From positions 6,621,556 to 6,685,555 of the forward strand of contig NC_135187.1 in NCBI RefSeq assembly GCF_041146795.1: 64,000 bases of DNA. The letters are read 5' to 3'. The stretch is from Maylandia zebra. Its lineage: Eukaryota > Chordata > Actinopteri > Cichliformes > Cichlidae. The notes beneath the pieces were generated by a model. That model ran no database searches and was not told where the DNA came from. It saw only the letters and a list, made by a program, of their open reading frames with translations. Position numbers and translations under genes: made by a program. Below, in pieces: positions 19,247-55,224 of the stretch (position 1 is its first letter; each line of letters opens with the position of its first letter).

Positions 19247-19364
19247 TATAAACAGTGGTTTTACATGGTTTTACTTTGATTTAAGGACATTTGGCGACAG
19301 TGTCCAAACACCAGTTCTCTACTAAAACTGAATCAGACAGTTTGGGAACACCAAAACAGCAAAG
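19247..19364 (+). promoter_or_regulatory. TATA box and untranslated exon of deaminase copy 1
   Basis: TATAAA at 19247-19252 is aligned with TATATAAA boxes at the same place in the other three copies. The segment up to the donor at 19364 (GCAAAG, then GTGAGT) is conserved among copies and has no useful ATG frame, so it is taken as the 5' untranslated region. The transcription start is inferred. Confidence 0.5.
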
Positions 19365-19934
19365 GTGAGTAGTGACCACATTTGAGTCTTAAAGCCTTTA
19401 TTGACGATTTTACAAGCGCTCTTTAAACGACTGTAACTCGGAGTCTTATATATCCTTTATTAATGCAGTTAGAAAAAAGTCCAGGCGGCTTAAATGATGC
19501 TTGGTCAATAAAGGGTTAATTTTATTTAAATAAATTAACTTTAGTCTGACATTTGAAGTGTCTCATATCAAGCTCCAGATGTGGACACCTGTCCATGCAA
19601 ATCAGGGTCAGCTGATGTTAAATCACACAGTCAAAGATCTTTTGGTAACAGCCAGTTAAATATATTTATTTTTCACAGCAAAAAGCTCCGGTTTGAATGA
19701 GAAGGCGGCATTCTTCTTTCACTTTAACCCAAATCTCAGCATTGATTAGAAGGATCTATACACATGTTTTCATTGTGTTTTTACTGTGTGGATGATAAAT
19801 GAACTACTGATGGTGTATACAGATTACTGAATGAGTGAAGAAAAGCTGATGTGAGAAACAGCCTGTGTAGATGTCAATAACTCTGCTCTGTTAAGAAACT
19901 CTGATTGCAGACGCCCCTTCTCTGGTGGATCACT

Positions 19935-22900
19935 ATGACGATGGTCTTCAATCTGTCTGCTGGAAGTTTGGCTGTAATAAACCAAAAGAAGCTTGCAGAA
20001 CTTATTGAACAGATAAGCACAAGTATCAAAGACAGGTAACTAAGCATCCTCTACAGCATGCCTATTCAACTACGAAGTTAGTTGGGCCAGATTTTCAAAC
20101 CGAGGAATTTATCTGGGCCAGATATTTTTTTTAAGCCAGTAAGCAGCAGATCATGATCAATTTCAAACCCACACAACTGTACTGAAAAACAAGTATTTTT
20201 TTAATTCCTTTTCCCCTATAAATCTGGTGGTGACCTCTCACAAATGCACACCAAAAGGTCCATTTAAAAAAAAGGGAGCTATAACTAAACTATTTTTTGC
20301 ACATTTGAAATAATAATAATAATAATAATAACAAAAAACATTTTGATAATTCCCTTTCAAATTAAAATAAATATTTCGCTGACCACTCACTTTTCCTGCC
20401 ATGGATGGAGCCCCATCCGTCACAAGTATACAGACACGCTTCATATCCAGACCATTTTCCTCAAAAAGAGCTTAAATCTCCTCAAACATCATTTCGCCAG
20501 CTGTGTGTCCCTCTAACGGTAGTAAACCGAGCAATTTCCCATTCAAAAAACGGACATATACGCACAACTGTGCATGATCAGTTCTGTCTGTGATCTCCTG
20601 CTATAGACATTACATCAGTTTTCTTCAGGTCATCTAACAGCATTTCAAACTCGTCTGACGCCCGAACTTCAATTCTACGAATATTTGAACTGTCCTACAG
20701 GGGTACGTTTTTAATAGCAGATGTCACACTCACTTTTCACCGCATCCACCACGGCCAGCATGCAGTATTTCATTGTTTCAGAATCTGTGAAAGGCCTTTT
20801 CTTCTTCGCCAAGAAGCAAACACGAAGGGAAGCTGCTGCAGCTCTCTCTTGGGCTGTACAGGACCCTCACCATGGTAGTACAACTCCTGTTGTAAGATTA
20901 TTAAACTCGGTAAAATGAATAAGTATTTGTCAGTCCAGGCAGGGTTAAACCGACAGTTTTCATTGTCAATTTTGCGCTTTTGGAGTGAGAAAGACATGCT
21001 GTTGTCGCATCATATATTACGATGATTGTTTAATATGTTTACATTACGGTGCATTGTGGGTTAAATATTGCTAGGCTACTAGGAGTGTTGCATTCAAAGT
21101 CTACACTACGCTGTAGGAATTTTTTATTTTTATTTTTAATTAATTAATGAATTCATTTTTTGCGTTTTCTCTGTGTTTCTGCCAGGACCACAGGCAGGGC
21201 CACTCGCAGGTTGCTTCTGGGCCGCCATTTGAATAGGCTTGCTCTACAGTCTCTGAAACTAAACATTTTTTGTTATTTGTTTTCATATGAATTCTGTTTG
21301 ATAAGCTCGGCAGAGCTGAGCTATGTAATAAGGTGGTGACATATGGTTACAAGCAGCGTTATTATAGTTAAAACTAAACTAAAAACTAAAACCAAATGTG
21401 GAAAAAAACTAGTTAAATAAAATAAAATAAAAATAAAAATAAAGAACTTCACTTAAAAAAATATCACTGAAATGATTTTGTGAATTTGGAAAACTAACTA
21501 AGATAAAAATCAAAATATGGAGCATTTTAATCATGTCCCTACATCCTCCATACAATAATAACTAAAAACATTAGATCACCATGTTGCATGTAATGATGTG
21601 TCTCTGTAACTATTGTTGATCTGATAATGAATTTATCCTCTCTCAGTTCTTATTTCCTGCTGCTCTTTGTCTTTTCACTCTGCTTTCTGTAAATATATAA
21701 AGTTCTACATAAATAAAGCTGATATAAGAGAGCAGTGATGTGGAGAGGACTACAGCTCCATTACTATCCAGTCTAGCTTTGTTTCTGAGGAAATGTTCAG
21801 TACCTCACCTTTCTGAACTGAATGATATAATTCTATAATTATTATAATGATATATTTATATCTAAACTTTGTATCACTTAATTCTTGTTATATTGTTCTT
21901 TATGTAAAGGGGATTCCCCATAATAATGCCATCAATAACAACAGTATACATGTAATAACATACATCTGGTATGTTAGCCATCTTTATGAGCTGTCATTAA
22001 GCCCTCTATACACAATTTTAATGTGTATATTTGTGTGTGTCTGTGTTTATTCTTTCTTGTGACAGGTACAACATTGAAGAAATGTATGCAGTGGCCACAA
22101 GTGTTCCGAAGGATGAAGACCAAGTTTCTTATGACTTCACAAAGGTGACGCCAAACCAACAGACAGAATTGAATGACGGCATCCTCAGGTCTCCGAGACT
22201 TGTGGTAGCCACAAAGAAAAAAGTCTACAATAAAAATGGGGACTGTCTATATACTGAACATGCAGAGTGGCGTGTTCTTCAGAATCTTAATCTTGAAGGT
22301 CAGGATGGTGATTTGTTGGTCTTCTTCTCTCATGCCAGTCCATGTGCCGAAAAGTGTGCAGATCCAGATGGAAAATACAGGATCACTGATCAGCTCAGAC
22401 GTCTCTTTAATGGATGTGAGTGGGGTGCAAAGGCGTTTGTATTTAACGTTTTATTCAGGCCACCTAGGCAGGACATTAATCCAGACAGGATAAATTTTGC
22501 CCTGACAAATATTGGAATAGCCATTGATCACGAAAACTTATTTCGCTGTAACGAAACTAATAATGGCGATTTCCATTGCATCAAATGCTTTAATGGTAGT
22601 CAGATAAACCCAAATGCCTACAAAAGGAGCTGGAACAGGAAGCTCCAGGCGGTGCACCGTTGGTCAGATGAACAGTCAAAGTCTACCCAAATCATCAACC
22701 ACATGGTCCTGGATACGATACACCCCCTCCAGTTTGCATACCGCCCCAATCGATCAGTTGATGACGCAACAGCATTTGCCCTGCACCACAGGGCATTAGC
22801 ATTAGCCCTGCACCACACTCTGCAACATCTGAAGAGTAGCAGCACGTATGTCAGGATGCTCTTCCTGGACTACAGCTCTGCTTTCAACACCATCCGCCCA

Positions 22901-23215
22901 GGCAAGCTGATCGAGAAACTGAGTGACGTCAACATCCCAACTCTCACTTGCAACTGGATCCTGGACTTTTTGACAGAGAGACCACAGGTGGTGAGAATTG
23001 GAGGACGCGTGTCTGCTGAGCTCACCATCAGCACTGGATCTCCACAGGGCTGCTGCCTCAGCCCTAAACTCTTCACCCTGTACACCCATGACTGTGTCTC
23101 CACCCAGGAAAACTCCATCATCATCAAATACGCTAACAACACCACCATCCTGGGGCTCATCAACAGGGGGTACGAGTCTGGGTACAGAACTCTACACTGT
23201 TCCAAAAAATATTAA
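19935..23215 (+). CDS. Secreted AID/APOBEC-like deaminase, copy 1; start-shifted and fused to LINE RT (possible pseudogene)
   Basis: Exons 19935-20035 and 22066-23215 join in phase 2, giving a 416-residue chimeric frame. The catalytic half has H99-A-E101-W and S-P-C127-x3-C131, the zinc ligands and catalytic Glu of the cytidine deaminase fold, followed by [11 protein letters not shown] and a CIKCFNG end, all as in copies 2 and 3. Two defects are visible. The codon after the splice acceptor, ATG in the other copies, is ACG at 19911-19913, so translation would start eight codons later at 19935 with a shortened signal peptide. Around residue 220 the normal end (after QINPNAY) runs in frame into a non-LTR reverse transcriptase. 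The deaminase domain itself has no stop. It may be a dying gene or a still-expressed variant. Intron 20036-22065 carries a hAT insertion. Confidence 0.6.
20057..21241 (-). mobile_element. hAT transposon remnant with 8-bp target duplication
   Basis: Terminal repeats CATGCCTATTCAA and CAAGCCTATTCAA (inverted) are flanked by a perfect 8-bp duplication CTCTACAG (20049-20056 and 21242-21249). Deaminase copies 2 and 3 have the empty site at the same place in the intron (CATCCTCTATGG / CATCATCTATGG). On the minus strand 20444-20238 reads [17 protein letters not shown], a hAT transposase block; the rest is broken. Confidence 0.8.
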
Positions 23216-27387: not shown

Positions 27388-29711
27388 ACCAGAATTAAAT
27401 GTAATTAAAACATCATGTTAAACAAAGAGGGACGTGTGGTCACGTGAACGAGCAAAGATGCCTCGTCTGGGAGAACAAGCACGTCCTCACACATGTATGC
27501 GCAAAAAACAAGCCAGTCTATTACTACTTACATTTAAAAAGAGTAACGACCGAGGGCATCAAAAATATTATGAAAGGTTGTTTATCCCATACAGTCCAGC
27601 CGAGATAACCACGGTCACTCTTAGAGAGACGCCGAGCAGACGCCACACAGACAGGGCCGAGCCAGCTTCCTGTGAGGAGACACTGCACCAGTGTAACGCA
27701 CACTGTACAGACAATAATGACAAAATTAATATAATTATTAGATGATTCACTCGTGTTTGAAATCAATTAATGCAGCTTTAAATGTTCCATAACAGCAGAA
27801 AAGAAAACGACTTAGAAAGGTTGGTGATGCAGCACGTCTGTTTACATGCAGCCTGATGAAAGTCATCAAAGAGGAGTAAAATGATCCGGTCGTCAAACAA
27901 AGGTTGTTTTCACCAAATAATTTATTAATCCATCATTTCGTTACATGTTGGAGGACAATACTGATGTACTGTAGTTTAATACATTATTAGTACCACTCAG
28001 GATTTACACGTCATTTTCTGTTATCACTGTTCAACAATCAGCTGGTCAGTCAGAGGACACCAAGGAAGTTTCATGTATGAAAATAACAAAAATACTAAAG
28101 TCGGGTTTTCAGCAGCAACTCTGAGATTCTTCCATCGTTTCTTTTCTCTCAGTAAAAATATTTTGAGCTCCTTTTTTTCATGTGATGGAGACTGATGGTT
28201 TTTAGTTTCAGTACAGTTTAACGGTGAAAGCTGCAGGAAACAGAATAATAACATCTACACTCATCATTTCAACCCAGGCAGTAAAGGCATCGAGATCTGC
28301 TCAGACCCGTCACGCACCGGAGGGTCGAAGCTGATAAATACTGTGAACCATCTTTGGTCTGGAACCTGTTTTGTTTTCAGAGGAAACAAATCTGCATTTA
28401 AAGATGTTCAGGTGACAAAAGAAGGTCGAATTATCAGAGCGGTCTGAGCAGCTTTCAGGAACAAACACGTCCATGCAGAAAACATGTTCTTCAGGTTTTA
28501 TCTTCTTCTTTGTCACATTATGAATTATTTTCAAAGCAGCTTTACCTTTTGTTAAAACACACATATCTTATTTAACACATACTTTATCAGATACACACCC
28601 ATATTTGACCTTCCTGTATCAGTTTACACCACATGGAAACATTAACTCTGACGTCCTGAACATAATCCAACATCAACGACTCCCGAAGTAAAAATTACCG
28701 TCAGTACAAACAGGTTTAAACAGGTTTAAACAGGTTTAAACAGGTTTAGTTTCTGTGAACATAAAACTGGATGAATAAACAAACAAATGAACTACTTGTT
28801 TTGGTCACATGACCATCGTGTGTAAAGTGTTCAAATGCATTAATCTCCACATTTAAGCATGAAATCATCATATTTAGACGTCTCTCACACAGTCGCTGAG
28901 TTTTCTCTGCAGCCGTTCAGCAGTTGACAAAAACAAACAGGATCAAACCCAAACAACCAAATCTGAGTCATACAGGAAACTCTGGAGGTCAAAGGTCACT
29001 GTACAAAAGCCAACAGTCTGCACCGAGTCTGAGCTCCAAACCTGCGTATAAAACATCTAAGCTGAGCCTTCACAGAAGGTAAAACATTCACTCTGAATCT
29101 CTTTGAGCTGGAAAACATCTCTAAAGGCTAAATATTCATGAGGTCACCAATAACTGCTCTGTGCTGCACGTCTGATTTTCATAAACACACACAACTATCA
29201 CACTGCTGCAGATGTGTGTAACAGTAACACCTGTATGACCAGAGGGCGGCACAGCTCTTTGAAAGGAAAGTCACTCAGAAAAGAATGACTTATTGATAAA
29301 CATAATAACACACCTTCCATCATGGAAAACGTTTCTCTTTAATTGCACTCATTTTGTATTTATCACTGTAATTTTCTCTTTTATCTTCACTCTAGCACAG
29401 ACCTGAAAACCTTTCAAAATAAACTAAACGATCAACAGAATGTGAATAAAAAGCTTCAAAACATCTGGGTCTAAAGCATCTGCATACTCATCCTGCAGAC
29501 TGGGCTGTTCTTCAGTGCAATACCAATTCGTACCACAAGATGGCGCACTGACTCAACATTAACTTTATTTGGGGAGGTAAGCCATAAAGATTCCGTTCTT
29601 TTTATAATAGTGGTCAGAAAAAGGTAAAATCTTCGAGGGTAAATGGGATTCAGGCTGAAGAACTGCTCACCTGTGGTTTAATACACCTGTCTGTGTTCTC
29701 AGCAGCAATAA
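27388..29711. repeat. Segmental duplication X, copy 1
   Basis: Nearly identical to 55225-57346 in the same orientation; that copy lacks about 200 bp corresponding to 27465-27660. It contains a perfect tandem array of a 10-mer, CAGGTTTAAA, about four units at 28706-28748. A 76-residue minus-strand frame (28254-28024) is intact in both copies but has no known motif. The function of the segment is unknown. Together the two copies bracket the ERV and the two intact deaminase genes. Confidence 0.85.
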
Positions 29712-30475: not shown

Positions 30476-31447
30476 TGCCAGGTTGCAGAACCCATAGAGT
30501 CATGAAAACAGAAAATGATTAGACATGATGGGGTGTGCTGTCGTTGAATACTCCATCATTATAAAGGAAGAACATGAAGCGTGCGCTTCTAACTGCTATT
30601 GTCAGGCCAAAGCTGCAGTGCAAATAAAAATTTGAATTACTTTGAATTCTTCAGATGATTAAACTGTTCACTGATAAATTTATCTATTCTGAGCAGCTAA
30701 CAGCGCACCCCTTGTTTATCTCAGCAGGCCTAACCGGAGGACAAGAGGTGGTAGCCTTGGCAACGGAAGTGCTTATAATTGGAGCATATTTGTCTTCTCT
30801 CTCTCATAAAAAACAAACAAACACCACTCTCACATTGTGCTTCTCATTCAGCGACCAGCAACGTGGCTTCATTTAAGCCTCCTCTGCCTGTCCTCCTGCC
30901 CACCCCGGAATCACCTCCACCTCAGATTGAAAAGAAAAAACTCTGACAGCTCATCAGCCTGCCGTTCACCTGGCCTGTTTCCTACCTGAAGCCAGAATTC
31001 ACTGCACTAGGATTAAGATCTTTTTTCCCTTCCCCTCCACTTACATTCTCCCTTTTATGTTACAGAGTCTCCCGGCCCCGTCTATTCCTGTTCCAAGCCT
31101 GTGTCGTGAAATGCTACTCCAGCCAGAGAATAATCATTGGCAAATCCTGTATTATTCCCCGCTTCACTCATTTAATAAATTGTGCTCTGTTTCTGTCACA
31201 ATAAAACTTAAATCTGTGTGTGTTTTGGTATCTGAACTTGGGTCCATCTCTCATGCTGGCCTCTGGGTCCTGTGACAGTTTTCTCTGAATAACTATGACT
31301 GATGAATTTGTTTTTCAGGTGAAATATGAGATGTTTGTGTGGCAGAGTGAGAAAAGGCATGAATCTCTGACTGACATGTATGCTCTGTCTCTGCAGCAGC
31401 AACAGGAGGAGGCAGCTCCTTCTCCATTTGCTTTATCTCATGCCTTG
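30476..31447. repeat. Array module (left part), split by the ERV
   Basis: 30595-31447 closely matches 40030-40898, and continues after the ERV at 39681-39828, matching 40899-41034. The module precedes each later deaminase copy. It contains TATAAAGG and AATAAA motifs (30561, 30624) and a CTTGGGTCCATCTCTC...GTGACAG tail at about 31240-31278 that recalls fish LTR-element ends. Confidence 0.65.
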
Positions 31448-32108
31448 TGTTAGATATTTTGATACCACGGTAAGCATTTACAGGATATTGTTTTATACAG
31501 GAAAACTGTTACTCAATAAGGCCAATCTACTAGTTGTTTTTCTCTTTCTCTGTGACCCAAGAATTAATGTGTAAGACTCACAAGCTGGTACCAGAAGGTC
31601 AAAAACACCACAGAGATGAGACCACTTCCTTACTCCCATCCTCCCTTTTTCTTTATCTCCTGGAAAAGGCTCGTTAAAGGCTAGGTGGTTTGTTTCAGAA
31701 TTCACTGATGAAAGAACTCTGTATTCTATGTCTAGGAGTGTATTTTGCTGGGATGATCATAAATTGTAGCTGAACTGATAAACTACACAAGGGATACTTT
31801 GCTCAGAAGGCAGGAAGACGTTTCCTTATTTGGTCTGTACCGGTTTGAACTGGGAAAGCTGACACACGAACCTTTTTTCATCTATATAAACTGCTGTGTA
31901 TCAAATAAACCTTTGAGTCGATTTGGGAAGACAACCTGAAGCAGTCTGTGTTTCCTTGTTCTCCCAAGCTGCTCCCGACGTCGTAACTAACCCAGCTGAA
32001 TGGCATACCTGAGTGTTACTTTAAATAATTAGGAATCTTATAAGGAAAGGACAGAACTCTGCTTATCGCTCACGCCACGGAGGAAACCCGGGAAGGCAAT
32101 TTCCTTCA
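31448..32108 (+). repeat. 5' LTR of the endogenous retrovirus
   Basis: Begins TGTTAGATATTTTG and ends AATTTCCTTCA (TG...CA). A TATA box (CTATATAAACTG, near 31882) and an AATAAA signal (near 31908) give U3, R and U5 in the usual order. Confidence 0.92.
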
Positions 32109-32112
32109 ATCT

Positions 32113-32130
32113 TGGTGTCAGAAGTGGGAT
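32113..32130 (+). promoter_or_regulatory. Retroviral primer binding site, tRNA-Leu type
   Basis: TGGTGTCAGAAGTGGGAT starts four bases after the 5' LTR. It is complementary to a 3' end of the form ATCCCACTTCTGACACCA, as in Leu tRNAs. Confidence 0.8.
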
Positions 32131-32309
32131 TACTGACAGAAGGTAAATATGCGTCTTTCATATTTATATAAAGACCTATTATACCTCTCTCAGTGATCGA
32201 TCCATAAAAAAACGGGATATGCTGACGAAGTTTCACTTAGTGATCCAGAGAGATACACTGACTGACTTCCTCAGTCCCCGAATAAAGTAAATTAACCCTT
32301 GTGTGGTGT

Positions 32310-32660
32310 TGGTGGACACAGGAAGTTGCCTGTTGTCTTGAATATTTTAATTTTGTTTAAGTTGCTCACTCAGAAAGAGTGACACAGGAAGTTGCCTGTT
32401 GTCTTAAATACTTCTCGTTAAGTGAGAAGTTGCTCACCAAAGAGTGACACAGGAAGTTGCCTGTTGTCTTAAATACTTCTCGTTAAGTGAGAAGTTGCTC
32501 ACCAAAGAGTGACACAGGGAGAAGTTGAACGGGTCTCACAGACCCGATTACCATACAAGGGTTAAAAGCAGTAAATTAAAAGCAGAAAGACACAGGAAGT
32601 TGCCTGTTGTTTTACGAGAAGTTGCTCGTTAAGCGAGAAGTTGCTCGCTAAGTGAGAGTT
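32310..32660 (+). repeat. Tandem repeats in the retroviral leader
   Basis: Units of about 70 bp built on GACACAGGAAGTTGCCTGTT and GTTAAGTGAGAAGTTGCTCA, at least three near-perfect copies plus degraded ones. GAAGTTGCTC repeats could fold into hairpins. This may be packaging or untranslated leader sequence. Confidence 0.65.
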
Positions 32661-32776
32661 GCTCACACAAACAAAAAAATTGCTAGCAATAAATTTAAAG
32701 TGACCTCAGCTGTGCCGCAGCGAAAATACTAACCTAAATCCTCCTAGCGTGTAAACCCCTCTGGAAATCACTGAAC

Positions 32777-34040: not shown

Positions 34041-34071
34041 TTTGTGTATTTAATTTAACATAAAGGGTGAA

Positions 34072-39000: not shown

Positions 39001-39014
39001 TAAAAGAGGGGAAC
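39001..39014 (+). promoter_or_regulatory. Polypurine tract
   Basis: AAAAGAGGGGAAC lies directly before the 3' LTR, the normal position of the plus-strand primer. Confidence 0.75.
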
Positions 39015-39828: not shown

Positions 39829-39965
39829 TCAAGGAGTTTTCAAGGAGTTATGTAATGTTATTTTCACTGTTGTCATGAAATAAATCACTTGTGTTAAATT
39901 ACTGAGCTCACTGTGTCTGCCTTTGAGTCCTTCCCTTCTGTGGCGGCTACTGGCCGCTGTGACAA
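39829..39965 (+). repeat. 3' part of a solo LTR at a duplication junction
   Basis: Matches the last 140 bp of the solo LTR at 46977-47368 (from CGCTCGGTCAAGGAGTTTTC to GCTGTGACA). Array sequence ends abruptly at about 39828 (CTTAGACCTG), so a duplication or recombination breakpoint falls here. Confidence 0.75.
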
Positions 39966-41158: not shown

Positions 41159-43053
41159 TATGGCGTTATTTTTGTGCCACTATTCTGAGCGCACGTAAAA
41201 AAAATTTGCAGGTGCAAGTGTTGCATTTTGAGGAGAAATTTATTTTGAGCGAAGAAAAGCTGAATTTGAGTGAACAAAATTCATTGCTGCATGCAAAAAA
41301 TGTATATCCGTGTTTGCTATTATCCATATACACACGCACAATAGCAGCCCCTCTCGCTCAGTTTTTGCACTTGCGCTCGCTCGCAATGTGTCGCTCGCGC
41401 TCTCAACATTTCAGCCCGTGCGCGCTCAACTCGTTCTGTACACCGTTATATTTGTGCCACAAAACCAGCCAATCACAGACTTGGATGCAAAAAAAATCTG
41501 ATTGGCTGTTTTCGTCTCCAACCAGCTCGAAATGACGAAATGCAATATCCCAGAATCCATTTCGTCCAAAACTCAAACGAGGCAGTGGCGGAGGAACACA
41601 GAGTGGCGGAGTTTGAAATATTACTCTTTGTGGGTCACAAAATAAACTTTTAAGATATTTTCATGCGAGAATGGTGCTGTGTAAACTTCTAATATCTGCT
41701 CGATTTATCAAGACATCACATATTTGCATAAGTGCTCTAACGTTTTTGGAGATGCCTGTTACCCACCAGCTGACCGAATACCTGGACTGGCCATTGGGCA
41801 TTTACCCGGCATTTGCCCGGTGGGCCAATGGTGATTTTTCATTTTTATGTTAGTTTGTTTGTTTTTGTAATGGTATAAACAATGAAAGGTGGTGGATTAG
41901 CCAACTGGTAATAATCAACTCTGGGCTGGACCAATTACAATACATCCGTATTGAGGGGAAAAGACTTCAGCGAGAATAAAAAAGACACAAAGCTGGAGTT
42001 ATTCTGTGTCTTAGCTGCCTCTTCTCTCCTCATTCTCCCTCCCTCTCCTGTTGCTACTTCAATCATGAAACTGATCAATGATCAGCTGATCGTCTCTCTT
42101 GTTTGTTTATCTCCCACTTTGCGCCAGAAACAGGAAACCAGCGGATGTTGCGCTAAACAACAACAGCAGCACGTTCAAAATTGATCAGCTGTTGTTAGAA
42201 TTTATTTAAAATTAATTTCTAGTATCAGCTGATGTTTGCTGGAGCCACAGCTGTAAAGCTGGAAACATGAAGGTGATACAAATCATACATATATACCAAC
42301 AAAACAGTGTACATCACTGTCACAACAGCGTTTGTTTTCGTTCAAAGGCTTTATGGTTTTTCCAATAATACCTGGTGGTGTAGTCGGTGATTTTTTTGTC
42401 AGTTCAGCCTTATATATTATGTTTAACCCGAGTTCCCACCCGGTCAGCTGGTGGGTAACAGGCATCTCCGAAAACGTTGGAGCACTTATGCAAATATGTG
42501 ATGTCTTGATAAATCGAGCAGATATTTGAAGTTCACACAGCTACATTCTAACATGAAAATATCTTAAAAGTTTATTTTGTGTCCCAGAAAGAGTAATATT
42601 TCAAACTCCGCCACTCTGTGTTCCTCCGCCACTGCCTCGTTTGAGCTTTGGACGAAATGGATTCTGGGATATTGCATTTCGTCCTTTCGAGCTGATTGGA
42701 GACAAAAACAGCCAATCAGATTTTTTTGCATCCAAGTCTGTGATTGGCTGGTTTTGTGGCACAAATATAACGGTGTACAGAAAGAGTTGAGCGTGCACGG
42801 GCAGAAATGTTGAGAGCGTGAGCGACACATTGCGAGCGCAAATACAAAAACTGAGCGAGAGGGGCTGCTATTGTGCGTGTGTATATGGATAATAGCAAAC
42901 ACGGATATACATTTTTTGCATGCAGCAATGAATTTTGTTCACTCAAATTCAGCTTTTCTTCGCTCAAAATAAATTTCTCCTCAAAATGCAACACTTGCAC
43001 CTGCAAACCTTTTTTACGTGCGCTCAGAATAGTGGCACAAAAATAACGCCATA
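41159..43053. mobile_element. Long-TIR transposon (about 0.62-kb inverted repeats), 1895 bp
   Basis: Starts TATGGCGTTATTTTTGTGCC and ends with its complement. The arms, about 41159-41795 and 42440-43053, are inverted copies with scattered differences. Both sides carry a 6-bp duplication TGAAAC (41153-41158, 43054-43059), and array copies 3 and 4 have the empty site (CTGCCCTGAAACCTGACTGC). The 640-bp centre has no transposase. Long arms recall MULE or foldback elements, but a 6-bp target is unusual for them, so the superfamily is open. Confidence 0.85.
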
Positions 43054-43098
43054 TGAAACCTGACTGCAGGTAAGAGACAAAGATCAATTTAGTTTTGC

Positions 43099-43222
43099 TA
43101 TATAAACAGTGTAAGTTTTTCACATGTGTGCAATGTTTTTTAGGATATTTGTTGATAGTTTCCAAACACTGGTTTTCCACTAAAACTGAATTCTTTTGGG
43201 GACAAACAGAAAAAAAGCAAAG
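43099..43222 (+). promoter_or_regulatory. TATA box and untranslated exon of deaminase copy 2
   Basis: TATATAAA at 43099-43106, conserved in all array copies, lies 46 bases after the end of the long-TIR element. The following stretch ends at a donor (GCAAAG, then GTGAGT at 43223). Confidence 0.55.
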
Positions 43223-43442
43223 GTGAGTAGTGACCACGTTTGAGTTTTACTCAAAGCATTTTATTTTATTTTGAATAACTTAACTTTAGTCTGACATTTA
43301 AAGTGTCTCACATCCAGCTCCAGATGTGGACACCTGTCCATGCAAATCATGTGCAAATGAATGAAGAAAAGCTGATATGAGAAACGGCCTCAGTCCAAAT
43401 GACCTCTTACTAACAATATCTGTTATGAAACTCTGAGTGCAG

Positions 43443-44169
43443 ATGGCTGGTCTCTGGTGGATCACTGTGACGATGGTCTTCTGTCTGTCTGCTGGAAGTT
43501 TGGCTGAAATAGACCAAAGCCAGCTCGCGACACTCATAGGTGTTCTAACAACAACAGTCAGACACGAGGAGTAAGTCAGCATCCTCTATGGTCTCTGAAA
43601 CTAAATATGTTTTAAAATTTGTTTTCTTGTGCAGTCAGGGCTGTTTGCTAAGCTTGGGAGAGCTGAGCTATGTTATAAGGTGACATATGGTTACACGCAG
43701 AGTTATTATAGTTAAAACTAAACTAAAAAAAGCTAGTTCAATAAAATAAAATTTTAATTAAAAACTAGACTTAAGAAAAAGAAAACTACCTGACATGATT
43801 TTGTGAATTTGAAAATCTAACCAAAAATAAATAAATAAATAAAAAATGCAGAGGAAGCATCTGTAATGATTTCCCTACATCCACCATACAATTATAACCA
43901 AAAACATTAAAACTGACACTAAAACTATCAAAAAATAAACTACAGCTAAACATTTTCAAACAATAAAAACTAACCTGAAACAAGAAAACTCACTTTGAAG
44001 TGAAATGAAACAAAACTAAACCCCAAAAAAGTCAAAATGGAATAAAAATAAAACTGGAAAATAAGAAACTTTGACACCTCAACATGAGGAATGCTGCTAC
44101 AGATTTCTTTGTATTACGTCTGACATGTACGTTAGCCATCTTTACCAGCTGTCACAAAGCTCTCTATTA

Positions 44170-44257
<88 letters not shown>

Positions 44258-44869
44258 GTGTGTGTGTGTGTGTTTCTTTTTTGTGACAGGGAAAGATCAA
44301 TGTATGCTGTGGCCGTAAGTATTCCGAAGGATGGAAACCAAGTCTCTTATGACCTAAGTCGAGTGACGGAAAACGAAGAGCTACAATGGGATGACGGCAT
44401 CCTCAGGACTTCTAGCCTTGTGTCAGCCAGAATAAAAAAAGTAACCATTAACAAAAGGGTCTATACTCAACATGCAGAGTGGCGTCTTCTGCAGAATCTA
44501 TATCTTAAAGGTCAGGATGGTGATTTGTTGGTCTTCTTCTCTTACGCCAGTCCATGTTTAACAAGCTGTGCAGATCCAAATCCAAATAAACCCTACAGGA
44601 TCACTGATGAGCTTAAAAATCTCTTTACTGAACACGAGTGGGGAGCAAAGGCATTTGTGTTTCAAACTGTATTCCAGCCAGGTCAGACGAACATTGATTC
44701 AGATAAAAAAAGAGAAGAAATAAAAAGCAGTACAACAGAGGCCCTGACAAATATTGGGGAATTCATTGGCTCTGAAAACATATTTCGCTGTTACAGACGT
44801 GTTAATCTTGGTTACAAATGCATTAAATGCTTCGATGGTGATCAGATTGAGCCAAACTGTATCTCATAA
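43443..44869 (+). CDS. Secreted AID/APOBEC-like cytidine deaminase, copy 2
   Basis: Exons 43443-43570 and 44290-44869 join in phase 2 to give 235 residues. The ATG is the first codon after the acceptor TGCAG. Residues 1-21 are a signal peptide (MAGLWWITV, hydrophobic core, AGSLA cleavage site), so the product should be secreted. The catalytic core is H104-A-E106 and, 24 residues later, P131-C132-x3-C136: the zinc ligands and proton-shuttling Glu of the deaminase fold, with AID/APOBEC-type spacing. A WGAKAFVF strand and a C-terminal Cys cluster (C210, C220, C223, C233) follow and may form disulfides. The fold and secretion fit the SNAD group; substrate (free nucleoside, DNA or RNA) is unknown. 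Flanks are shared with copy 3. Confidence 0.85.
44171..44273 (+). repeat. (TG)n microsatellite next to the splice acceptor of copy 2
   Basis: About 100 bases of TG, with a short CG-rich part (TGCGCGCGCG), end 16 bases before the catalytic exon. TTTCTTTTTTGTGACAG follows directly. Copy 1 has only a short, impure run here. Confidence 0.95.
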
Positions 44870-46976
44870 TGCACCAACTCGTTTATGCAGGAAGGAACAT
44901 TTAAAAAAAATAATTTAAAAAAATTGCTGAACATTATTAATGATTCGTTTTCATTTTAAAAGCTGAAGTACTTTCTGCCTCCCTCACTTTCTGCCTGTAA
45001 CCTGGAATTTTTTGTCTAAGTGATGACTCAGCAATTTAAAGTCCAGCTACATTTATATTTGTCTTTGCTAACTGATACAAACCATAAGTCGCTTTTTAAA
45101 TTCTCTTTGAAATTTAATGCAGCTCAGTTTAGTCCCAAAACTGCTCGTGGTAGTCGTGCTGAATTGAATTTGACTTTAACAAAATGATATCAAATCCAAA
45201 TCCTTTTAACTTACAGATCTATTTATAAAATAATATGTATTTATAATAATAATAATACATTTGATTTAAAAGTGCCTTTCAAGACATCCAAGGACACTTA
45301 GCAATAGAATAAAACACATAGTAGAACAATGACAAAACAAAAAACCCCACAAGATAAAATCAACAAACAATAAGATCACATTTAGATTAAGGCTACGGCT
45401 GAAATTAAGCAAAAAATAGTAAAAATGTAATCTATTTGTCATTTTTTAATAATAACTTTTGTAATACACGCCTCAAGTCCATTGTCTACAAAATGATATA
45501 GCTCTCAATTTACTGCTAAAACATAACAAAATAAAATACCCACTGTGTGATTATCACGGTGACGTGATGTTTGCTGAAGTCAAGAAAAAATCAGTCAAAG
45601 GTCACAGTCAAATAAAAAACAACAACAACAGTCAAAGTCAAATATAACTGTTATTTCAGTTATATTTGCATGTTTGAAATAAAATTCTATCTATCTAGTT
45701 GTTCGTTTTTTAAGCTCTGGATTTTTCCAACAATTACAATTATTTAAAAAAAAAACAACTTCAATGGAAAAAAATATTAGATTTAATAAGAATTTATTCA
45801 TTCTAATTTATATCAGCTGCTAATTGGAAGACTTTTTGATATTTGAGTTGGTAGCAGTTTATGATTCGAAACAGATTCAGGACGATTATCGCAAAGCTAC
45901 AACAGATGTGAATGTAATAGTTTGGAAGTGGTTAATGAAACCTGTGTGTTTCAGATAAAAGCAGTATGTGGATGGTTATTGTGAGGCTGAAAAAGAAGTT
46001 TTTGCGTTAAATAATGAATGTAAAGTTGGCCGATGGGGTGGCAGAGCCATAAATCACAGTGTGCCTGGAGAGCATTTATGTGCTATTTCACTCACTGTTC
46101 ATGTTTATGTGACTCCCCGAGGATTAGAACAAACAACCACAAACTAATTACATACTTATGAATCAATTATAGCGTTAAACATTATTCATTTATTGTTTTG
46201 TTAGCAGTAATAATCCATCAGTTTGCTGTTTATTAAGAATAATTGTTATGAAGTGTTACTTTTGATGTGTTTGTTGGTGCTTTTATTTTGAATGAGTTTC
46301 AGCTTTACTTTGAGTGACACCTGAAACTGAACCTGTAATCTTATTGTTAGCTGAAGAAAAGGCTGATAGAAAACTGCAGTCTGTATTAACTGTAATACAT
46401 CATTTTAATTGAGAATAGAAGTTTTCACAGCACTTGTGTGTTTGTATAAAGTTCTGTGCTTCTTTAAAGCCTGATGAAATCTCTGATTAAAGCTTCGCTC
46501 AGCAAACATTCACGTGTCTGCATGTCAGTCATTACAAACCGGCTTTAACCTTCATGATTTCACTGAGCCCAGCTTTCTGCAGGTGTAGCTGCTCTTGCAG
46601 TGAATGTTGTGGCTTTTTAAATCCAGTGTAGACTGAGTGTTCTTAAGTGTCCAGTACACAACAACGATGGTAAAACCACAGTGTTGCTTCATCATCCTCC
46701 AGTTATCGATTACTTTCTCAATTGAAAACCTCCAAAAAATGCTTCAGATTATTATATTATAATGCTAATCAGATTATTTTGATAACTGATTGTTATTGTG
46801 GTTTCTTTTGTTTTACCTCATTCAATTTCTTTAAATATATAAATAAGAGAACACAGATAAACCCCTGAATCCTTCAGTGAGGCGATCTGATGGCTCTGCT
46901 TTATAGTTGGCACAGGGTAGGCTTGTGTTAAAGGTACCAGGTTGCAGCACCCATGGAGTCATGAAAACAGAAAATG

Positions 46977-47368
46977 TGTCACAATCCAAGTGAGTGGGGG
47001 GGTGTTCTGGAGGCTGGCAGCAGTTTTCCGCTTGCACTTAAACCCAGCCTGGTCAACTCTCCTTCGCCAGCCCGTCAGCTACTCAGGCCGCGTACCTCTG
47101 TGTTTTCTACAGGTCGAGAGTTTGCCTTACCAGTTTCTTCCTGTGTCTACATCTTACCTCTTTGTTCTCACCGTCACTCCGTTGACAGCCTCCAGCCAGA
47201 AATCCTCACTTCTCCTCTACAGCCTCGCTCGGTCAAGGAGTTTTCAAGGAGTTATGTAATGTTATTTTCACTGTTGTCATGAAATAAATCACTTGTGTTA
47301 AATTACTGAGCTCACTGTGTCTGCCTTTGAGTCCTTCCCTTCTGTGGCGGCTACTGGCCGCTGTGACA
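46977..47368 (+). mobile_element. Solo LTR, 392 bp
   Basis: TGTCACAATCC...GCTGTGACA with the 5-bp duplication AAATG on both sides (46972-46976, 47369-47373). The empty site is seen at about 30510 (AGAAAATGATTAGACATG). An AATAAA lies near 47283. Confidence 0.85.
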
Positions 47369-47749
47369 AAATGATTAGACATGACGTGGCTTGTGATGAT
47401 GGCACTATCATTATAAAAGAGGAACATGAAGTGTGCACTCCTAACTGCTATTGTCAGGCCAAAGCTGCAGTGCAAATAAAAATTTGAATTACTTTGAATT
47501 CTTCAGATGATTAAACTGTTCACTGATACATTTATCTGTTCTGAGCAGCTCACTGTGCCTGTATCCGTTATTTTTATCTGCTGAAAGGCCTCGTGGTTTT
47601 TAGCTGGGCCACACAGAGAAGAGGAAGTGCAGTTACTCTGATACTAACAGACATAAACAGAGAGAAGCTGCCTTCTCCATGGATTGTGGCCAAGGCCATG
47701 AATAAGGTGCTGTTATGGAATCTTCTGACCAATCATGTTAACATTCAAA

Positions 47750-48039
47750 TGGCCTGTATTTTTCTAAAGCGCTTTACTAGTCCCTAAGGACCCCAAAGCG
47801 CTTCACACATTCAGTCATCCACCCATTCACACACACATTCACACACTGGTGATGGCACCCTGGGGCGCACTGACAGAGGCGAGGCTGCTGGACACTGGTG
47901 CCACTGGGCCCTCTGACCACCAGTAGGCAACGGGTGAAGTGTCTTGCCCAAGGACACAAGGAACGAGACTGTCCAAGGCTCGAACCGGCAACCTTCGGAT
48001 TACAAGGTGAACTCTCAACTCTTGAGCCACGATCGCCCC
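47750..48039 (-). mobile_element. AFC-like SINE (minus strand), unit 1
   Basis: Reverse complement of the SINE type in the daxx intron: GCGATCGTGGCTCAAGAG head at 48039, B box in GGTTCGAGCC near 47984, and tail GGACTAGTAAAGCGC near 47770. Confidence 0.75.
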
Positions 48040-48243
48040 AGTTTCTGTGACCTGCAATAAAAAGTGTTTACTGCCTGGTTGCAAAAGCCTTGGTCTCTGA
48101 GCCACAGAGACCAAGGTTCACTGTGCCATGTAAAGCAATTTGAAATTCTAAGGGTTTTGATAATAAACTGTAAAAACTTATAATTGGAGCACATTTGTCT
48201 TCTCTCTCTCATAAAAGTACCCAAACACCACTCTCACTATTGT

Positions 48244-48362
48244 TGTCACAATTAGCGGGGTTGACTGTGTGTAGAGTGAAAGGTGGACCCAAATGCAGAT
48301 GAAACAAAACGTGAAACGTGACTTGAATAACCAAAAGCGACCCAGAGACCCAGCCTGTGACA
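48244..48362. mobile_element. Short TG...CA element with 5-bp duplication
   Basis: 119 bp, TGTCACAATTAGCGGGG...GCCTGTGACA, flanked by ATTGT (48239-48243, 48363-48367). Termini match those of the 392-bp solo LTR, so it may be a deleted LTR or a very small LTR-type element of the same family. Confidence 0.65.
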
Positions 48363-49073
48363 ATTGTGCTTCTCATTCAGCGACCAGCAACGTGGCTGCA
48401 GCATGGCTGCATTTAAGCCTCCTCTCCCTGTCCTCCTGCCCACATCAGTTTGAAAAAAAAAACCAAACTCTGACAACTCATCTGCCTGCCGTTCACTTGG
48501 CCTGTTTCGCACCTGAAGCCAGAATTCGCTGCACTAGGATTAAGCTCTCTTCTTAGTCTGCCCCTCCCATTTTCTGAAATACTTTCCCCTCCAGTTACAT
48601 TCTCTCTTTTATGTTATAGAGTCAATCAATTTGTTTTTCAGGTGAAATATGAGATGTTTGTGTGGCAGAGTGAGAAAAGGCATGAATCTCTGACTGACAT
48701 GTATGCTCTGTCTCTGCAGCAGCAACAGGAGGAGGCAGCTCCTTCTCCAATTGCTTTATCTCATGCCTTGTGTCCTCATCATTTTATGCCCTTTGTTGGA
48801 GTGCTTTAGGTCGTCCAGATCAACCTGCTTTGCACCACCATTGCTGGGGTACCGCCCATTGTTGAGTTTTTTGGACCAATCAAGACACGCCAGTGTTAAC
48901 TTAGACCTGCAGGAAGGATGCTCTGCTGTAATTGGCTCTTAAGATAACGGTATATTGGTCAGACACAGACAGGAGTGTTTCAGATGTCTCGTTGCCTGTG
49001 AGAAACAGATATCTGAGTAATCCTGCCCTGAAACCTGACTGCAGGTAAGAGACAAAGATCAATTTAGTTTTGC

Positions 49074-49197
49074 TATATAAACAGTGTAAGTTTTTCACAT
49101 GTGTGCAATGTTTTTTAGGATATTTGTTGATAGTTTCCAAACACTGGTTTTCCACTAAAACTGAATTCTTTTGGGGACAAACAGAAAAAAAGCAAAG
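49074..49197 (+). promoter_or_regulatory. TATA box and untranslated exon of deaminase copy 3
   Basis: TATATAAA at 49074-49081; donor GCAAAG, then GTGAGT, at 49198. Here the upstream array sequence is uninterrupted. Confidence 0.55.
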
Positions 49198-49415
49198 GTG
49201 AGTAGTGACCACGTTTGAGTTTTACTCAAAGCATTTTATTTTATTTTGAATAACTTAACTTTAGTCTGACATTTAAAGTGTCTCACATCCAGCTCCAGAT
49301 GTGGACACCTGTCAGTGCAAATCATGTGCAAATGAATGAAGAAAAGCTGATATGAGAAACGGCCTCAGTCCAAATGACCTCTTACTAACAATATCTGTTA
49401 TGAAACTGAGTGCAG

Positions 49416-50151
49416 ATGGCTGGTCTCTGGTGGATCACTGTGACGATGGTCTTCTGTCTGTCTGCTGGAAGTTTGGCTGAAATAGACCAAAACCAGCTCG
49501 CGACACTCATAGGTGTTCTAACAACAACAGTCAGACCAGCCACACGGGAGTAAGTCAGCATCATCTATGGTCTCTCAAACTAAATATGTTTTAAAATTTG
49601 TTTTCTTGTGCAGTCAGGGCTGTTTGCTAAGCTTGGGAGAGCTGAGCTATGTTATAAGGTGGTGACATATGGTTACACGCAGAGTTATTATAGTTAAAAC
49701 TAAACTAAAAAAAGCTAGTTCAATAAAATAAAATTTTAATTAAAAACTAGACTTAAGAAAAAGAAAACAACCTGGCATGATTTTGTGAATTTGAAAATCT
49801 AACCAAAAATAAATAAATAAATAAAAAATGCAGAGGAAGCATCTGTAATGATTTCCCTACATCCACCATACAATTATAACAAAAAACATTAAAACTGACA
49901 CTAAAACTATCAAAAAATAAACTACAGCTAAACATTTTCAAACAATAAAAACTAACCTGAATCAAGAAAACTCACTTTGAAGTGAAATGAAACAAAACTA
50001 AACCCCAAAAAAGTCAAAATGGAATAAAAATAAAACTGGAAAATAAGAAACTTTGACACCTCAACATGAGGAATGCTGCTACAGATTTCTTTGTATTACG
50101 TCTGACATGTACGTTAGCCATCTTTACCAGCTGTCACAAAGCTCTCTATTA

Positions 50152-50247
<96 letters not shown>

Positions 50248-50838
50248 CTTTTTTGTGACAGGGAAAGATCAATGTATGCTGTGGCCGTAAGTATTCCGAA
50301 GGATGGAAACCAAGTCTCTTATGACCTAAGTCGAGTGACGGGAGCCCAAGAGCTACAATGGGATGACGGCATCCTCAGGACTTCTAGACTTGTGTCAGCC
50401 AGAATAAACAAAGTAACCATTAACAACAGGGTCTATACTCAACATGCAGAGTGGCGTCTTCTGCAGAATCTATATCTTGAAGGTCAGGATGGTGATTTGT
50501 TGGTCTTCTTCTCTTACGCCAGTCCATGTTTAACAAGCTGTGCAGATCCAAATCCAAATAAACACTACAGGATCACTGATGAGCTTAAAAATCTCTTTAC
50601 TGAACACGAGTGGGGAGCAAAGGCATTTGTGTTTCAAACTGTATTCCAGCCAGGTCAGATGAACATTGATTCAGATAAAAAAAGAGAAGAAATAAAAAGC
50701 AGTACAACAGAGGCCCTGACAAATATTGGGGAATTCATTGGCTCTAAAAACATATTTCGCTGTTACAGACGTGATAATCGTTACGATTGCATTAAATGCT
50801 TCGATGATGGTCAGATTGTCGAAAACTGTATCTCATAA
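49416..50838 (+). CDS. Secreted AID/APOBEC-like cytidine deaminase, copy 3
   Basis: Exons 49416-49549 and 50262-50838 join in phase 2, 236 residues. Same signal peptide as copy 2, catalytic H106-A-E108 and P133-C134-x3-C138, WGAKAFVF and C-terminal Cys cluster are all kept. Exon 2 ends with two extra codons (RPATRE against RHE in copy 2). The catalytic exon differs from copy 2 by 21 base substitutions and one codon deletion; all 21 change amino acids (17 residues), and none touches the zinc site. Neighbouring introns and the 3' flank are about 99 percent identical, so coding change has outpaced background change. Likely active. Function is inferred from the fold. Confidence 0.85.
50153..50245 (+). 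repeat. (TG)n microsatellite next to the splice acceptor of copy 3
   Basis: Pure TG run of about 93 bases, ending 16 bases before the catalytic exon with TTTCTTTTTTGTGACAG after it. Length and purity differ from copy 2. Confidence 0.95.
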
Positions 50839-52945
50839 TGCACCAACTCGTTTATGCAGGAAGGAACATTTAAAAAAAATAATTTAAAAAAATTGCTGAA
50901 CATTATTAATGATTCGTTTTCATTTTAAAAGCTGAAGTACTTTCTGCCTCCCTCACTTTCTGCCTGTAACCTGGAATTTTTTGTCTAAGTGATGACTCAG
51001 CAATTTAAGGTCCAGCTACATTTATATTTGTCTTTGCTAACTGATACAAACCATAAGTCGCTTTTTAAATTCTCTTTGAAATTTAATGCAGCTCAGTTTA
51101 GTCCCAAAACTGCTCGTGGTAGTCGTGCTGAATTGAATTTGACTTTAACAAAATGATATCAAATCCAAATCCTTTTAACTTACAGATCTATTTATAAAAT
51201 AATATGTATTTATAATAATAATAATACATTTGATTTAAAAGTGCCTTTCAAGACATCCAAGGACACTTAGCAATAGAATAAAACACATAGTACAACAATG
51301 ACAAAACAAAAAACCCCACAAGACAAAATCAACAAACAATAAGATCACATTTAGATTAAGGCTACGGCTGAAATTAAGCAAAAAATAGTAAAAATGTCAT
51401 CTGTTTGTCATTTTTTAATAATAACTTTTGTAATACACGCCTCAAGTCCATTGTCTACAAAATGATATAGCTCTCAATTTACTGCTAAAACATAACAAAA
51501 TAAAATACCCACTGTGTGATTATCACGGTGACGTGATGTTTGCTGAAGTCAAGAAAAAATCAGTCAAAGGTCACAGTCAAATAAAAAACAACAACAACAG
51601 TCAAAGTCAAATATAACTGTTATTTCAGTTATATTTGCATGTTTGAAATAAAATTCTATCTATCTAGTTGTTCGTTTTTTAAGCTCTGGATTTTTCCAAC
51701 AATTACAATTATTTAAAAAAAAAACAACTTCAATGGAAAAAAATATTAGATTTAATAAGAATTTATTCATTCTAATTTATATCAGCTGCTAATTGGAAGA
51801 CTTTTTGATATTTGAGTTGGTAGCAGTTTATGATTCGAAACAGATTCAGGACGATTATCGCAAAGCTACAACAGATGTGAATGTAATAGTTTGGAAGTGG
51901 TTAATGAAACCTGTGTGTTTCAGATAAAAGCAGTATGTGGATGGTTATTGTGAGGCTGAAAAAGAAGTTTTTGCGTTAAATAATGAATGTAAAGTTGGCC
52001 GATGGGGTGGCAGAGCCATAAATCACAGTGTGCCTGGAGAGCATTTATGTGCTATTTCACTCACTGTTCATGTTTATGTGACTCCCCGAGGATTAGAACA
52101 AACAACCACAAACTAATTACATACTTATGAATCAATTATAGCGTTAAACATTATTCATTTATTGTTTTGTTAGCAGTAATAATCCATCAGTTTGCTGTTT
52201 ATTAAGAATAATTGTTATGAAGTGTTACTTTTGATGTGTTTGTTGGTGCTTTTATTTTGAATGAGTTTCAGCTTTACTTTGAGTGACACCTGAAACTGAA
52301 CCTGTAATCTTATTGTTAGCTGAAGAAAAGGCTGATAGAAAACTGCAGTCTGTATTAACTGTAATACATCATTTTAATTGAGAATAGAAGTTTTCACAGC
52401 ACTTGTGTGTTTGTATAAAGTTCTGTGCTTCTTTAAAGCCTGATGAAATCTCTGATTAAAGCTTCGCTCAGCAAACATTCACGTGTCTGCATGTCAGTCA
52501 TTACAAACCGGCTTTAACCTTCATGATTTCACTGAGCCCAGCTTTCTGCAGGTGTAGCTGCTCTTGCAGTGAATGTTGTGGCTTTTTAAATCCAGTGTAG
52601 ACTGAGTGTTCTTAAGTGTCCAGTACACAACAACGATGGTAAAACCACAGTGTTGCTTCATCATCCTCCAGTTATCGATTACTTTCTCAATTGAAAACCT
52701 CCAAAAAATGCTTCAGATTATTATATTATAATGCTAATCAGATTATTTTGATAACTGATTGTTATTGTGGTTTCTTTTGTTTTACCTCATTCAATTTCTT
52801 TAAATATATAAATAAGAGAACACAGATAAACCCCTGAATCCTTCAGTGAGGCGATCTGATGGCTCTGCTTTATAGTTGGCACAGGGTAGGCTTGTGTTAA
52901 AGGTACCAGGTTGCAGCACCCATGGAGTCATGAAAACAGAAAATG

Positions 52946-53337
52946 TGTCACAATCCAAGTGAGTGGGGGGGTGTTCTGGAGGCTGGCAGCAGTTTTCCGC
53001 TTGCACTTAAACCCAGCCTGGTCAACTCTCCTTCGCCAGCCCGTCAGCTACTCAGGCCGCGTACCTCTGTGTTTTCTACAGGTCGAGAGTTTGCCTTACC
53101 AGTTTCTTCCTGTGTCTACATCTTACCTCTTTGTTCTCACCGTCACTCCGTTGACAGCCTCCAGCCAGAAATCCTCACTTCTCCTCTACAGCCTCGCTCG
53201 GTCAAGGAGTTTTCAAGGAGTTATGTAATGTTATTTTCACTGTTGTCATGAAATAAATCACTTGTGTTAAATTACTGAGCTCACTGTGTCTGCCTTTGAG
53301 TCCTTCCCTTCTGTGGCGGCTACTGGCCGCTGTGACA
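52946..53337 (+). mobile_element. Solo LTR, unit 2 copy
   Basis: Duplicate of 46977-47368 with the same AAATG flanks, so the insertion predates the 5.97-kb duplication. Confidence 0.85.
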
Positions 53338-53718
53338 AAATGATTAGACATGACGTGGCTTGTGATGATGGCACTATCATTATAAAAGAGGAACATGAAG
53401 TGTGCACTCCTAACTGCTATTGTCAGGCCAAAGCTGCAGTGCAAATAAAAATTTGAATTACTTTGAATTCTTCAGATGATTAAACTGTTCACTGATACAT
53501 TTATCTGTTCTGAGCAGCTCACTGTGCCTGTATCCGTTATTTTTATCTGCTGAAAGGCCTCGTGGTTTTTAGCTGGGCCACACAGAGAAGAGGAAGTGCA
53601 GTTACTCTGATACTAACAGACATAAACAGAGAGAAGCTGCCTTCTCCATGGATTGTGGCCAAGGCCATGAATAAGGTGCTGTTATGGAATCTTCTGACCA
53701 ATCATGTTAACATTCAAA

Positions 53719-54008
53719 TGGCCTGTATTTTTCTAAAGCGCTTTACTAGTCCCTAAGGACCCCAAAGCGCTTCACACATTCAGTCATCCACCCATTCACA
53801 CACACATTCACACACTGGTGATGGCACCCTGGGGCGCACTGACAGAGGCGAGGCTGCTGGACACTGGTGCCACTGGGCCCTCTGACCACCAGTAGGCAAC
53901 GGGTGAAGTGTCTTGCCCAAGGACACAAGGAACGAGACTGTCCAAGGCTCGAACCGGCAACCTTCCAATTACAAGGTGAACTCCCAACTCTTGAGCCACG
54001 ATCGCCCC
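53719..54008 (-). mobile_element. AFC-like SINE (minus strand), unit 2
   Basis: Duplicate of 47750-48039 with a few substitutions in the head (CCAATTACAAGG against CGGATTACAAGG). Confidence 0.75.
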
Positions 54009-54212
54009 AGTTTCTGTGACCTGCAATAAAAAGTGTTTACTGCCTGGTTGCAAAAGCCTTGGTCTCTGAGCCACAGAGACCAAGGTTCACTGTGCCATGT
54101 AAAGCAATTTGAAATTCTAAGGGTTTTGATAATAAACTGTAAAAACTTATAATTGGAGCACATTTGTCTTCTCTCTCTCATAAAAGTACCCAAACACCAC
54201 TCTCACTATTGT

Positions 54213-54331
54213 TGTCACAATTAGCGGGGTTGACTGTGTGTAGAGTGAAAGGTGGACCCAAATGCAGATGAAACAAAACGTGAAACGTGACTTGAATAAC
54301 CAAAAGCGACCCAGAGACCCAGCCTGTGACA
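54213..54331. mobile_element. Short TG...CA element, unit 2 copy
   Basis: Duplicate of 48244-48362 with the same ATTGT flanks. Confidence 0.65.
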
Positions 54332-55013
54332 ATTGTGCTTCTCATTCAGCGACCAGCAACGTGGCTGCAGCATGGCTGCATTTAAGCCTCCTCTCCCTGT
54401 CCTCCTGCCCACATCAGTTTGAAAAAAAAAACCAAACTCTGACAACTCATCTGCCTGCCGTTCACTTGGCCTGTTTCGCACCTGAAGCCAGAATTCGCTG
54501 CACTAGGATTAAGCTCTCTTCTTAGTCTGCCCCTCCCATTTTCTGAAATACTTTCCCCTCCAGTTACATTCTCTCTTTTATGTTATAGAGTCAATCAATT
54601 TGTTTTTCAGGTGAAATATGAGATGTTTGTGTGGCAGAGTGAGAAAAGGCATGAATCTCTGACTGACATGTATGCTCTGTCTCTGCAGCAGCAACAGGAG
54701 GAGGCAGCTCCTTCTCCAATTGCTTTATCTCATGCCTTGTGTCCTCATCATTTTATGCCCTTTGTTGGAGTGCTTTAGGTCGTCCAGATCAACCTGCTTT
54801 GCACCACCATTGCTGGGGTACCGCCCATTGTTGAGTTTTTTGGACCAATCAAGACATGCCAGTGTTAACTTAGACCTGCAGGAAGGATGCTCTGCTGTAA
54901 TTGGCTCTTAAGACAACGGTATGTTGGTCAGACACAGACAGGAGTGTTTCAGATGTCTTGTTGCCTGTGAGAAACAGATATCCGAGTAATCCTGCCCTGA
55001 AACCTGACTGCAG

Positions 55014-55224
55014 GTAAGAGACAAAGATCAATTTAGTTTTGCTATATAAACAGTGTAAGTTTTTCACATGTGTGCAATGTTTTTTAGGATATTTGTTGAT
55101 AGTTTCCAAACACTGGTTTTCCACTAAAACTGAATTCTTTTGGGGACAAACAGAAAAAAAGCAAAGGTGAGTAGTGACCACGTTTGAGTTTTACTCAAAG
55201 CATTTTATTTTATTTTGCCAGAAA
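55014..55224 (+). pseudogene. Truncated deaminase copy 4 (promoter and untranslated exon only)
   Basis: TATATAAA at 55043-55050 and the untranslated exon with its GTGAGT donor are kept. Similarity stops at about 55217 (CATTTTATTTTATTTTG), where segment X begins, so the signal-peptide and catalytic exons are missing. The promoter could still start a transcript running into segment X. Confidence 0.8.

Follow-up and report, generated by a model that had tools for sequence, protein, structure and literature searches.

We analyzed a window of 64,000 nt from Maylandia zebra (contig NC_135187.1), the window being the whole stretch of DNA under study, from whose start all coordinates are counted. Gene copies were compared by blastn and tblastn, subjected to Pfam profile searches and PDB sequence searches, and set beside published gene positions. 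Between daxx and a zbtb22-type gene, the window holds four stretches of SNAD1, a family of predicted secreted deaminases, all on the forward strand: copy C (19247-22615, followed by part of a long interspersed nuclear element, LINE), copy A (43101-44869), copy B (49076-50838) and copy D (54998-55217). An earlier note on this DNA had described four copies, one fused to a LINE, two intact and one truncated, with all parts in common. The fusion of copy C and the intactness of A and B were borne out, as was the shared promoter: TATAAA occurs at 19247, 43101, 49076 and 55045, each time with the same first exon after it, ending ...AAAG|GTGAGTAG in all four copies. The other parts are not common to all, since copy D consists of promoter, untranslated exon and the start of intron 1, and in copy C the start codon is replaced by ACG and the final codons of the catalytic exon are missing.

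The splice sites of copies A and B could be read directly and give genes of three exons (untranslated, signal-type and catalytic). Copy A has its TATA box at 43101-43106 and its untranslated exon up to 43222 (43101-43222 together), a putative signal-peptide exon at 43443-43570 whose first codon is the ATG, and a catalytic exon, stop included, at 44290-44869 (Pfam SNAD1, E=1.2e-16). In copy B, the TATA box (49076-49081) and untranslated exon occupy 49076-49197, the putative signal-peptide exon (49416-49549) is 6 bases longer than that of copy A, and the catalytic exon with its stop lies at 50262-50838. Both catalytic exons are open to the stop, the products being 235 (A) and 236 (B) residues long. 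As judged by hydrophobicity, the N-terminus of copy A contains a hydrophobic stretch (best 9-residue mean 2.5) followed by SAGSLA. Copy D (54998-55217, untranslated exon to 55166) is identical to copy A at 220/220 bases. Read in this way, copies A and B are intact and copy D is a stub. Long GT repeats of unequal length lie in intron 2 close to the catalytic-exon acceptor (44171-44270 in A, 50150-50260 in B) and could influence splicing in both genes.

In order to place these genes in a family, we scored them against PF18744 (SNAD1), which has a curated cut-off of 25 bits. The earlier note had proposed a family of the AID/APOBEC type with H-A-E and, 24 residues later, P-C-x3-C in the catalytic exon. 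Both points held: copies A, B and C scored 61.8, 59.9 and 62.7 bits, and the motif reads H61-A62-E63, 24 residues, P88-C89-x3-C93 in the numbering of the copy A exon, with the letters HAE followed by PCLTSC in both A and B and by PCAEKC in C. We also looked for a profile hit pointing to some unrelated family, which would have spoken for another identity, and found none. Thirteen proteins matched the exon of copy A at E of 1e-3 or below, and 17 matched the alignment when scored among the 8000 candidates with the most words in common. This alignment (A1) comprised the three window exons and proteins P0001-P0013, 16 rows in all; P0014-P0017 lie outside it and outside the counts of 16. The named relatives are all cichlids (Simochromis diagramma, Neolamprologus brichardi and Oreochromis niloticus); one source gives P0008 an additional label, that of a mammal. 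All 16 aligned sequences matched PF18744 at E up to 1, and H61, A62, E63, P88, C89, C93, C167, C177 and C180 are invariant in 16/16 rows. The last three form the C-terminal three-cysteine cluster described for SNAD1, a published trait of the family together with a zinc motif given as CVxxC (PMC11004436). Zebrafish SNAD1 genes likewise have three exons (PMC11004436, Table 1). Copy A also gave weak profile matches on the same zinc motif to XOO_2897-deam (E=0.052) and SNAD4 (E=0.18).

Several results weigh against a deaminase assignment. General deaminase profiles matched weakly, dCMP_cyt_deam_1 being found in 4/16 members with a best E of 0.044. The PDB sequence search returned no deaminase, its best unrelated match (E=0.0015) having no passing stretch, and the 16-sequence profile searched against PDB returned none either (best unrelated E=0.76), so that the identity of the fold rests on Pfam. 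As to a viral origin, scanning viral contigs yielded 36 pattern matches, none of them confirmed as a relative, and so no sign of one here.

Copy C is clearly related to copy A (tblastn of the copy A exon, E=1.1e-62, not a chance match). Its TATA box (19247-19252) and untranslated exon, found by blastn to copy A, span 19247-19364, the last exon base being 19364 and the donor GTGAGTAG; its signal-type exon (19911-20035) begins at 19911 with ACG instead of the ATG found in A and B, and its first in-frame Met is residue 9. The catalytic exon (22066-22615) has lost its final codons (NCIS-stop) and is joined in frame to a LINE reverse-transcriptase fragment (22616-23215; RVT_1, E=2.1e-16), the fused reading stopping at 23213-23215. 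The boundary at 22616 is approximate, as it was placed where similarity to copy A stops. Reverse transcriptases usually carry the motif YxDD; copy C has YANN at this position, and its reverse transcriptase is therefore probably inactive. The fused reading is identical at 413/416 residues to an annotated protein of S. diagramma, LOC120726733 (P0014), whose gene model also begins at an internal Met and thus has a shortened hydrophobic stretch. Such identity implies either that the chimera arose before the two lineages separated or that the source species is closely related to S. diagramma. Copy C is best described as a degraded or altered SNAD1 copy that a LINE has captured. Selection on copy C was considered and not upheld: a stop-free SNAD part is unsurprising after 40, 70 or 100 random changes (P=0.29, 0.11 and 0.06), and for the reverse-transcriptase part the corresponding P ranges from 0.84 to 0.09 for 5 to 80 random changes. 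Another S. diagramma protein, P0002 (LOC120726734), is a SNAD1 protein sharing this signal exon, and the consecutive LOC numbers suggest that LOC120726733 and LOC120726734 are neighbours in that species.

Copies A and B lie in two tandem units of about 5.97 kb (43054-49034 and 49029-55003, forward strand), 98.9% identical over 6205 aligned bases. Likeness of this degree might also arise if two alleles had been set in tandem through an assembly error. We regard this as very improbable, as a third partial unit, copy D, comes next, all three are on one contig, and a 1.9-kb insertion lies upstream of copy A alone.

Differences between A and B are unevenly distributed, with 21/5261 differing sites in non-coding DNA, 4/128 in the signal exon and 20/577 in the catalytic exon. 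The excess in the catalytic exon is significant against all non-coding DNA (P=2e-10; 12 vs 17 events and P=8e-6 with changes lying within 6 bases of each other merged) and against nearby non-coding DNA (13/1480, P=8e-5; merged, P=0.008). Coding changes were counted by the method of Nei and Gojobori and compared by Fisher test. Over the whole coding sequence there are 26 non-synonymous changes and 1 synonymous (non-synonymous divergence dN 0.049, synonymous divergence dS 0.0066, ratio 7.3, P=0.011), some signal-exon changes being alignment-dependent as they adjoin the 6-base length difference; the catalytic exon alone has 20.5 and 0.5. Neutral simulation gave P=0.028 for at most 1 synonymous among 20 changes. 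dS agrees with the level seen in non-coding DNA, whereas dN is conspicuously high, although independent events are few. None of the 18 residue differences (one of them a deletion) falls at the zinc site or at the C-terminal cysteines.

Several points temper a reading of this pattern as positive selection. With 12 merged events the lack of synonymous changes is weakly unusual (P=0.033 for none, P=0.17 for at most 1), and the merged tests cover clustering of changes, not a conversion tract spanning the whole exon. With regard to constraint, dN/dS is 0.83 for A/C and 0.92 for B/C, which does not demonstrate strong purifying selection. The excess in the catalytic exon could instead stem from gene conversion involving divergent cichlid copies of SNAD1, or from flanks that were homogenised recently, and we consider this a serious possibility, close to even though not quite. 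The residue of copy B occurs in other cichlid copies at 13/17 substitutions, against 5.0 expected for random changes (P=2e-5), and both residues are present among 13 homologues at 9/17 positions; changes come in runs, such as four adjacent bases at 44850-44853; the tail of copy B, IVENCIS, is the same as in P0002 and P0006; and 45435-47996 shows zero differences between A and B, compared with 13/1480 in the non-coding part of 43254-45453. Conversion tracts should, however, bring in synonymous differences too, and only about 0.5 of the 21 exon changes is synonymous, while residue states common to other copies are expected from exchange and also if tolerated residues alone survive. The pattern most likely reflects selection and exchange between copies together. 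A deaminase-type mutation pattern between A and B was inspected by eye and is not claimed, the changes being of mixed type. The idea that SNAD1 evolves fast is older; the new element is that it has been measured here on two young tandem copies, their own flanking DNA serving as the yardstick.

The same data bear on whether the cluster is mostly dying, with transposon-rich DNA amplifying SNAD1 fragments and A and B simply being young duplicates that have no particular role. Damage to copies C and D, an interval filled with transposons and a broken provirus, and an A/C dN/dS near 1 would all fit. Against this, in A and B the frames are complete, the splice sites are preserved and no zinc-site residue is lost, and the catalytic-exon insertions and deletions among A, B and C all preserve the frame. 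We therefore find a dying cluster improbable.

The genes flanking the cluster place it in the extended major histocompatibility complex (MHC) region. On the left, a forward-strand reading frame at 1769-2119 contains the histone-binding-domain exon of daxx (Pfam PF20920, E=8.3e-16), and its protein matched PDB chains named Death domain-associated protein 6 at E of about 5e-21, confirming the linkage to daxx proposed in the earlier note. On the right, a reverse-strand gene (60597-63291) has a C2H2 exon at 60597-61682 and a BTB exon within 62377-63291 (Pfam zf-H2C2_2, zf-C2H2 and BTB, E=2e-9). The BTB and C2H2 domains of the proposed zbtb22 were thus recovered; the name itself we infer, without a direct match, from these domains and from the published gene order TAPBP-DAXX-ZBTB22-KIFC1, kept in fish and human (PMC1971071). 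The stretch separating daxx from copy C contains an open frame of 352 residues (11854-12912, reverse strand) that encodes a C2H2 zinc-finger array.

Repeats and mobile elements are found throughout the interval. A long terminal repeat (LTR) element of about 8.2 kb (31448-39675) has two 661-base LTRs that are 100% identical, indicating a recent insertion; its reverse transcriptase, RNase H and integrase domains are in separate reading-frame pieces, so its pol is broken. A 0.94-kb repeat (97.7%) lies on both sides of it, at 30512-31450 and 39964-40897. The 1.9-kb stretch upstream of copy A (41159-43053) has inverted repeats of about 615 bases (95.6%) at its ends, and the copy B unit is continuous at this point; the six overlapping bases 49029-49034 fit a target-site duplication of this stretch. 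It ends 48 bases upstream of the copy A TATA box and may alter the copy A promoter. A 2-kb stretch is repeated at 98.8% on both sides of the A and B units (27666-29711 and 55303-57346), and its second copy, which starts soon after the copy D stub, is perhaps a duplication breakpoint.

Published positions differ from this arrangement. SNAD1 is reported on chromosome 15 in zebrafish, 17 in trout and ssa09 in salmon, and on several in carp, none numbered 19 (PMC11004436, Table 1). Zebrafish daxx, znf297 and kifc1 were assigned to chromosome 19 in a 2004 draft (PMC1309616), and MHC class I regions to trout 18 and 14 and salmon probably 27 and 14 (PMC1971071). Provided that the numbering schemes of these papers agree, SNAD1 and daxx are not neighbours in zebrafish, trout or salmon. 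Our literature search, outside which most subscription journals fell, retrieved no paper linking SNAD1 to daxx or the MHC region, and the words 'daxx', 'zbtb' and 'synteny' are absent from PMC11004436 and PMC13402138. Speculatively, a relocation into the extended MHC may have turned cichlid SNAD1 into a polymorphic immune locus in its own right, in which secreted editors are diversified, as MHC genes are, by selection and exchange between copies, one copy being a lasting chimera of SNAD1 and reverse transcriptase in at least two cichlid lineages. We think this scenario unlikely as a whole. The many cichlids already sequenced would allow the locus to be typed for association with infection.

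As for function, the intact genes probably encode a zinc deaminase that is secreted and targets nucleic acid of pathogens, an activity predicted from sequence. As the sequence itself shows, each is built of a TATA promoter and three exons (untranslated, signal-type and catalytic). The protein would be exported, as suggested by the N-terminus and by the presence of SNAD1 in seminal plasma and blood of carp, where it shifts with temperature and with infection, the latter inducing it (PMC11004436), and in nurse shark plasma (PMC9207270). Judging by the motif, zinc would be bound through H61, C89 and C93, with E63 as proton donor. In the least certain step, the enzyme would deaminate cytidine wherever nucleic acid of a virus, bacterium or parasite lies exposed. 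The exposed parts of A and B would then be kept different by three processes: unequal exchange giving tandem duplicates, the swapping of short stretches among copies, and selection favouring changes in the protein; the changes themselves are observed. In the nurse shark study (PMC9207270), fast evolution at the substrate loops of SNAD1 was attributed to pathogens, with reference to Krishnan et al.

The proteins may instead not be nucleic-acid editors at all, acting as nucleoside deaminases or as binding or scaffold proteins on a deaminase fold. Extracellular nucleic acid is scarce as a substrate, and according to PMC11004436 SNAD activity is not known to have been measured; the invariance of the catalytic glutamate and zinc ligands in 16/16 rows argues against a purely structural role. 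A non-editing function is possible but rather unlikely. Of the MHC-linked secreted mutator or nucleoside-modifying defence family put forward in the earlier note, the family (PF18744) and the daxx linkage thus stand and the function stays a prediction, SNADs being without known activity according to PMC11004436 and PMC8201067. A young duplicate pair differing mainly in the enzyme exon provides two almost identical proteins for side-by-side tests on one set of substrates.

SNADs, reportedly defined by Krishnan et al. in 2018, form the secreted arm of the class of enzymes behind antibody mutation and antiviral editing. Compared with classical AID/APOBEC enzymes, the copies share the H-x-E ... 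P-C-x2-4-C zinc motif (as defined in PMC11004436). However, those enzymes are intracellular, whereas SNADs are secreted by published description, and there was no sequence match to their PDB members. SNAD2 (PF18745, cut-off also 25) is closer, being matched by 11/16 aligned members at E up to 1 (best 2.1e-7) and by copy C at 31.4 bits; A, B and C nevertheless all score far higher for SNAD1, A and B gave no SNAD2 match in the Pfam searches of the window, and SNAD2 was rejected as best-matching profile. In S. diagramma, LOC120726733 carries SNAD1, SNAD2 and RVT_1 domains, as the copy C chimera does, whereas LOC120726734 is identical to copy A at only 166/239 residues (69%) and is a candidate ortholog at most. 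The closest likeness is to SNAD1 (PF18744; zebrafish si:dkey-96g2.1, carp Cap31) in profile, zinc motif, C-terminal cysteines, putative signal-type N-terminus and three exons. SNAD1 of zebrafish, trout and salmon is on other chromosomes than daxx or MHC class I, in contrast to its position here between daxx and a zbtb22-type gene; by these comparisons, the genes belong to a known family in an unreported genomic setting.

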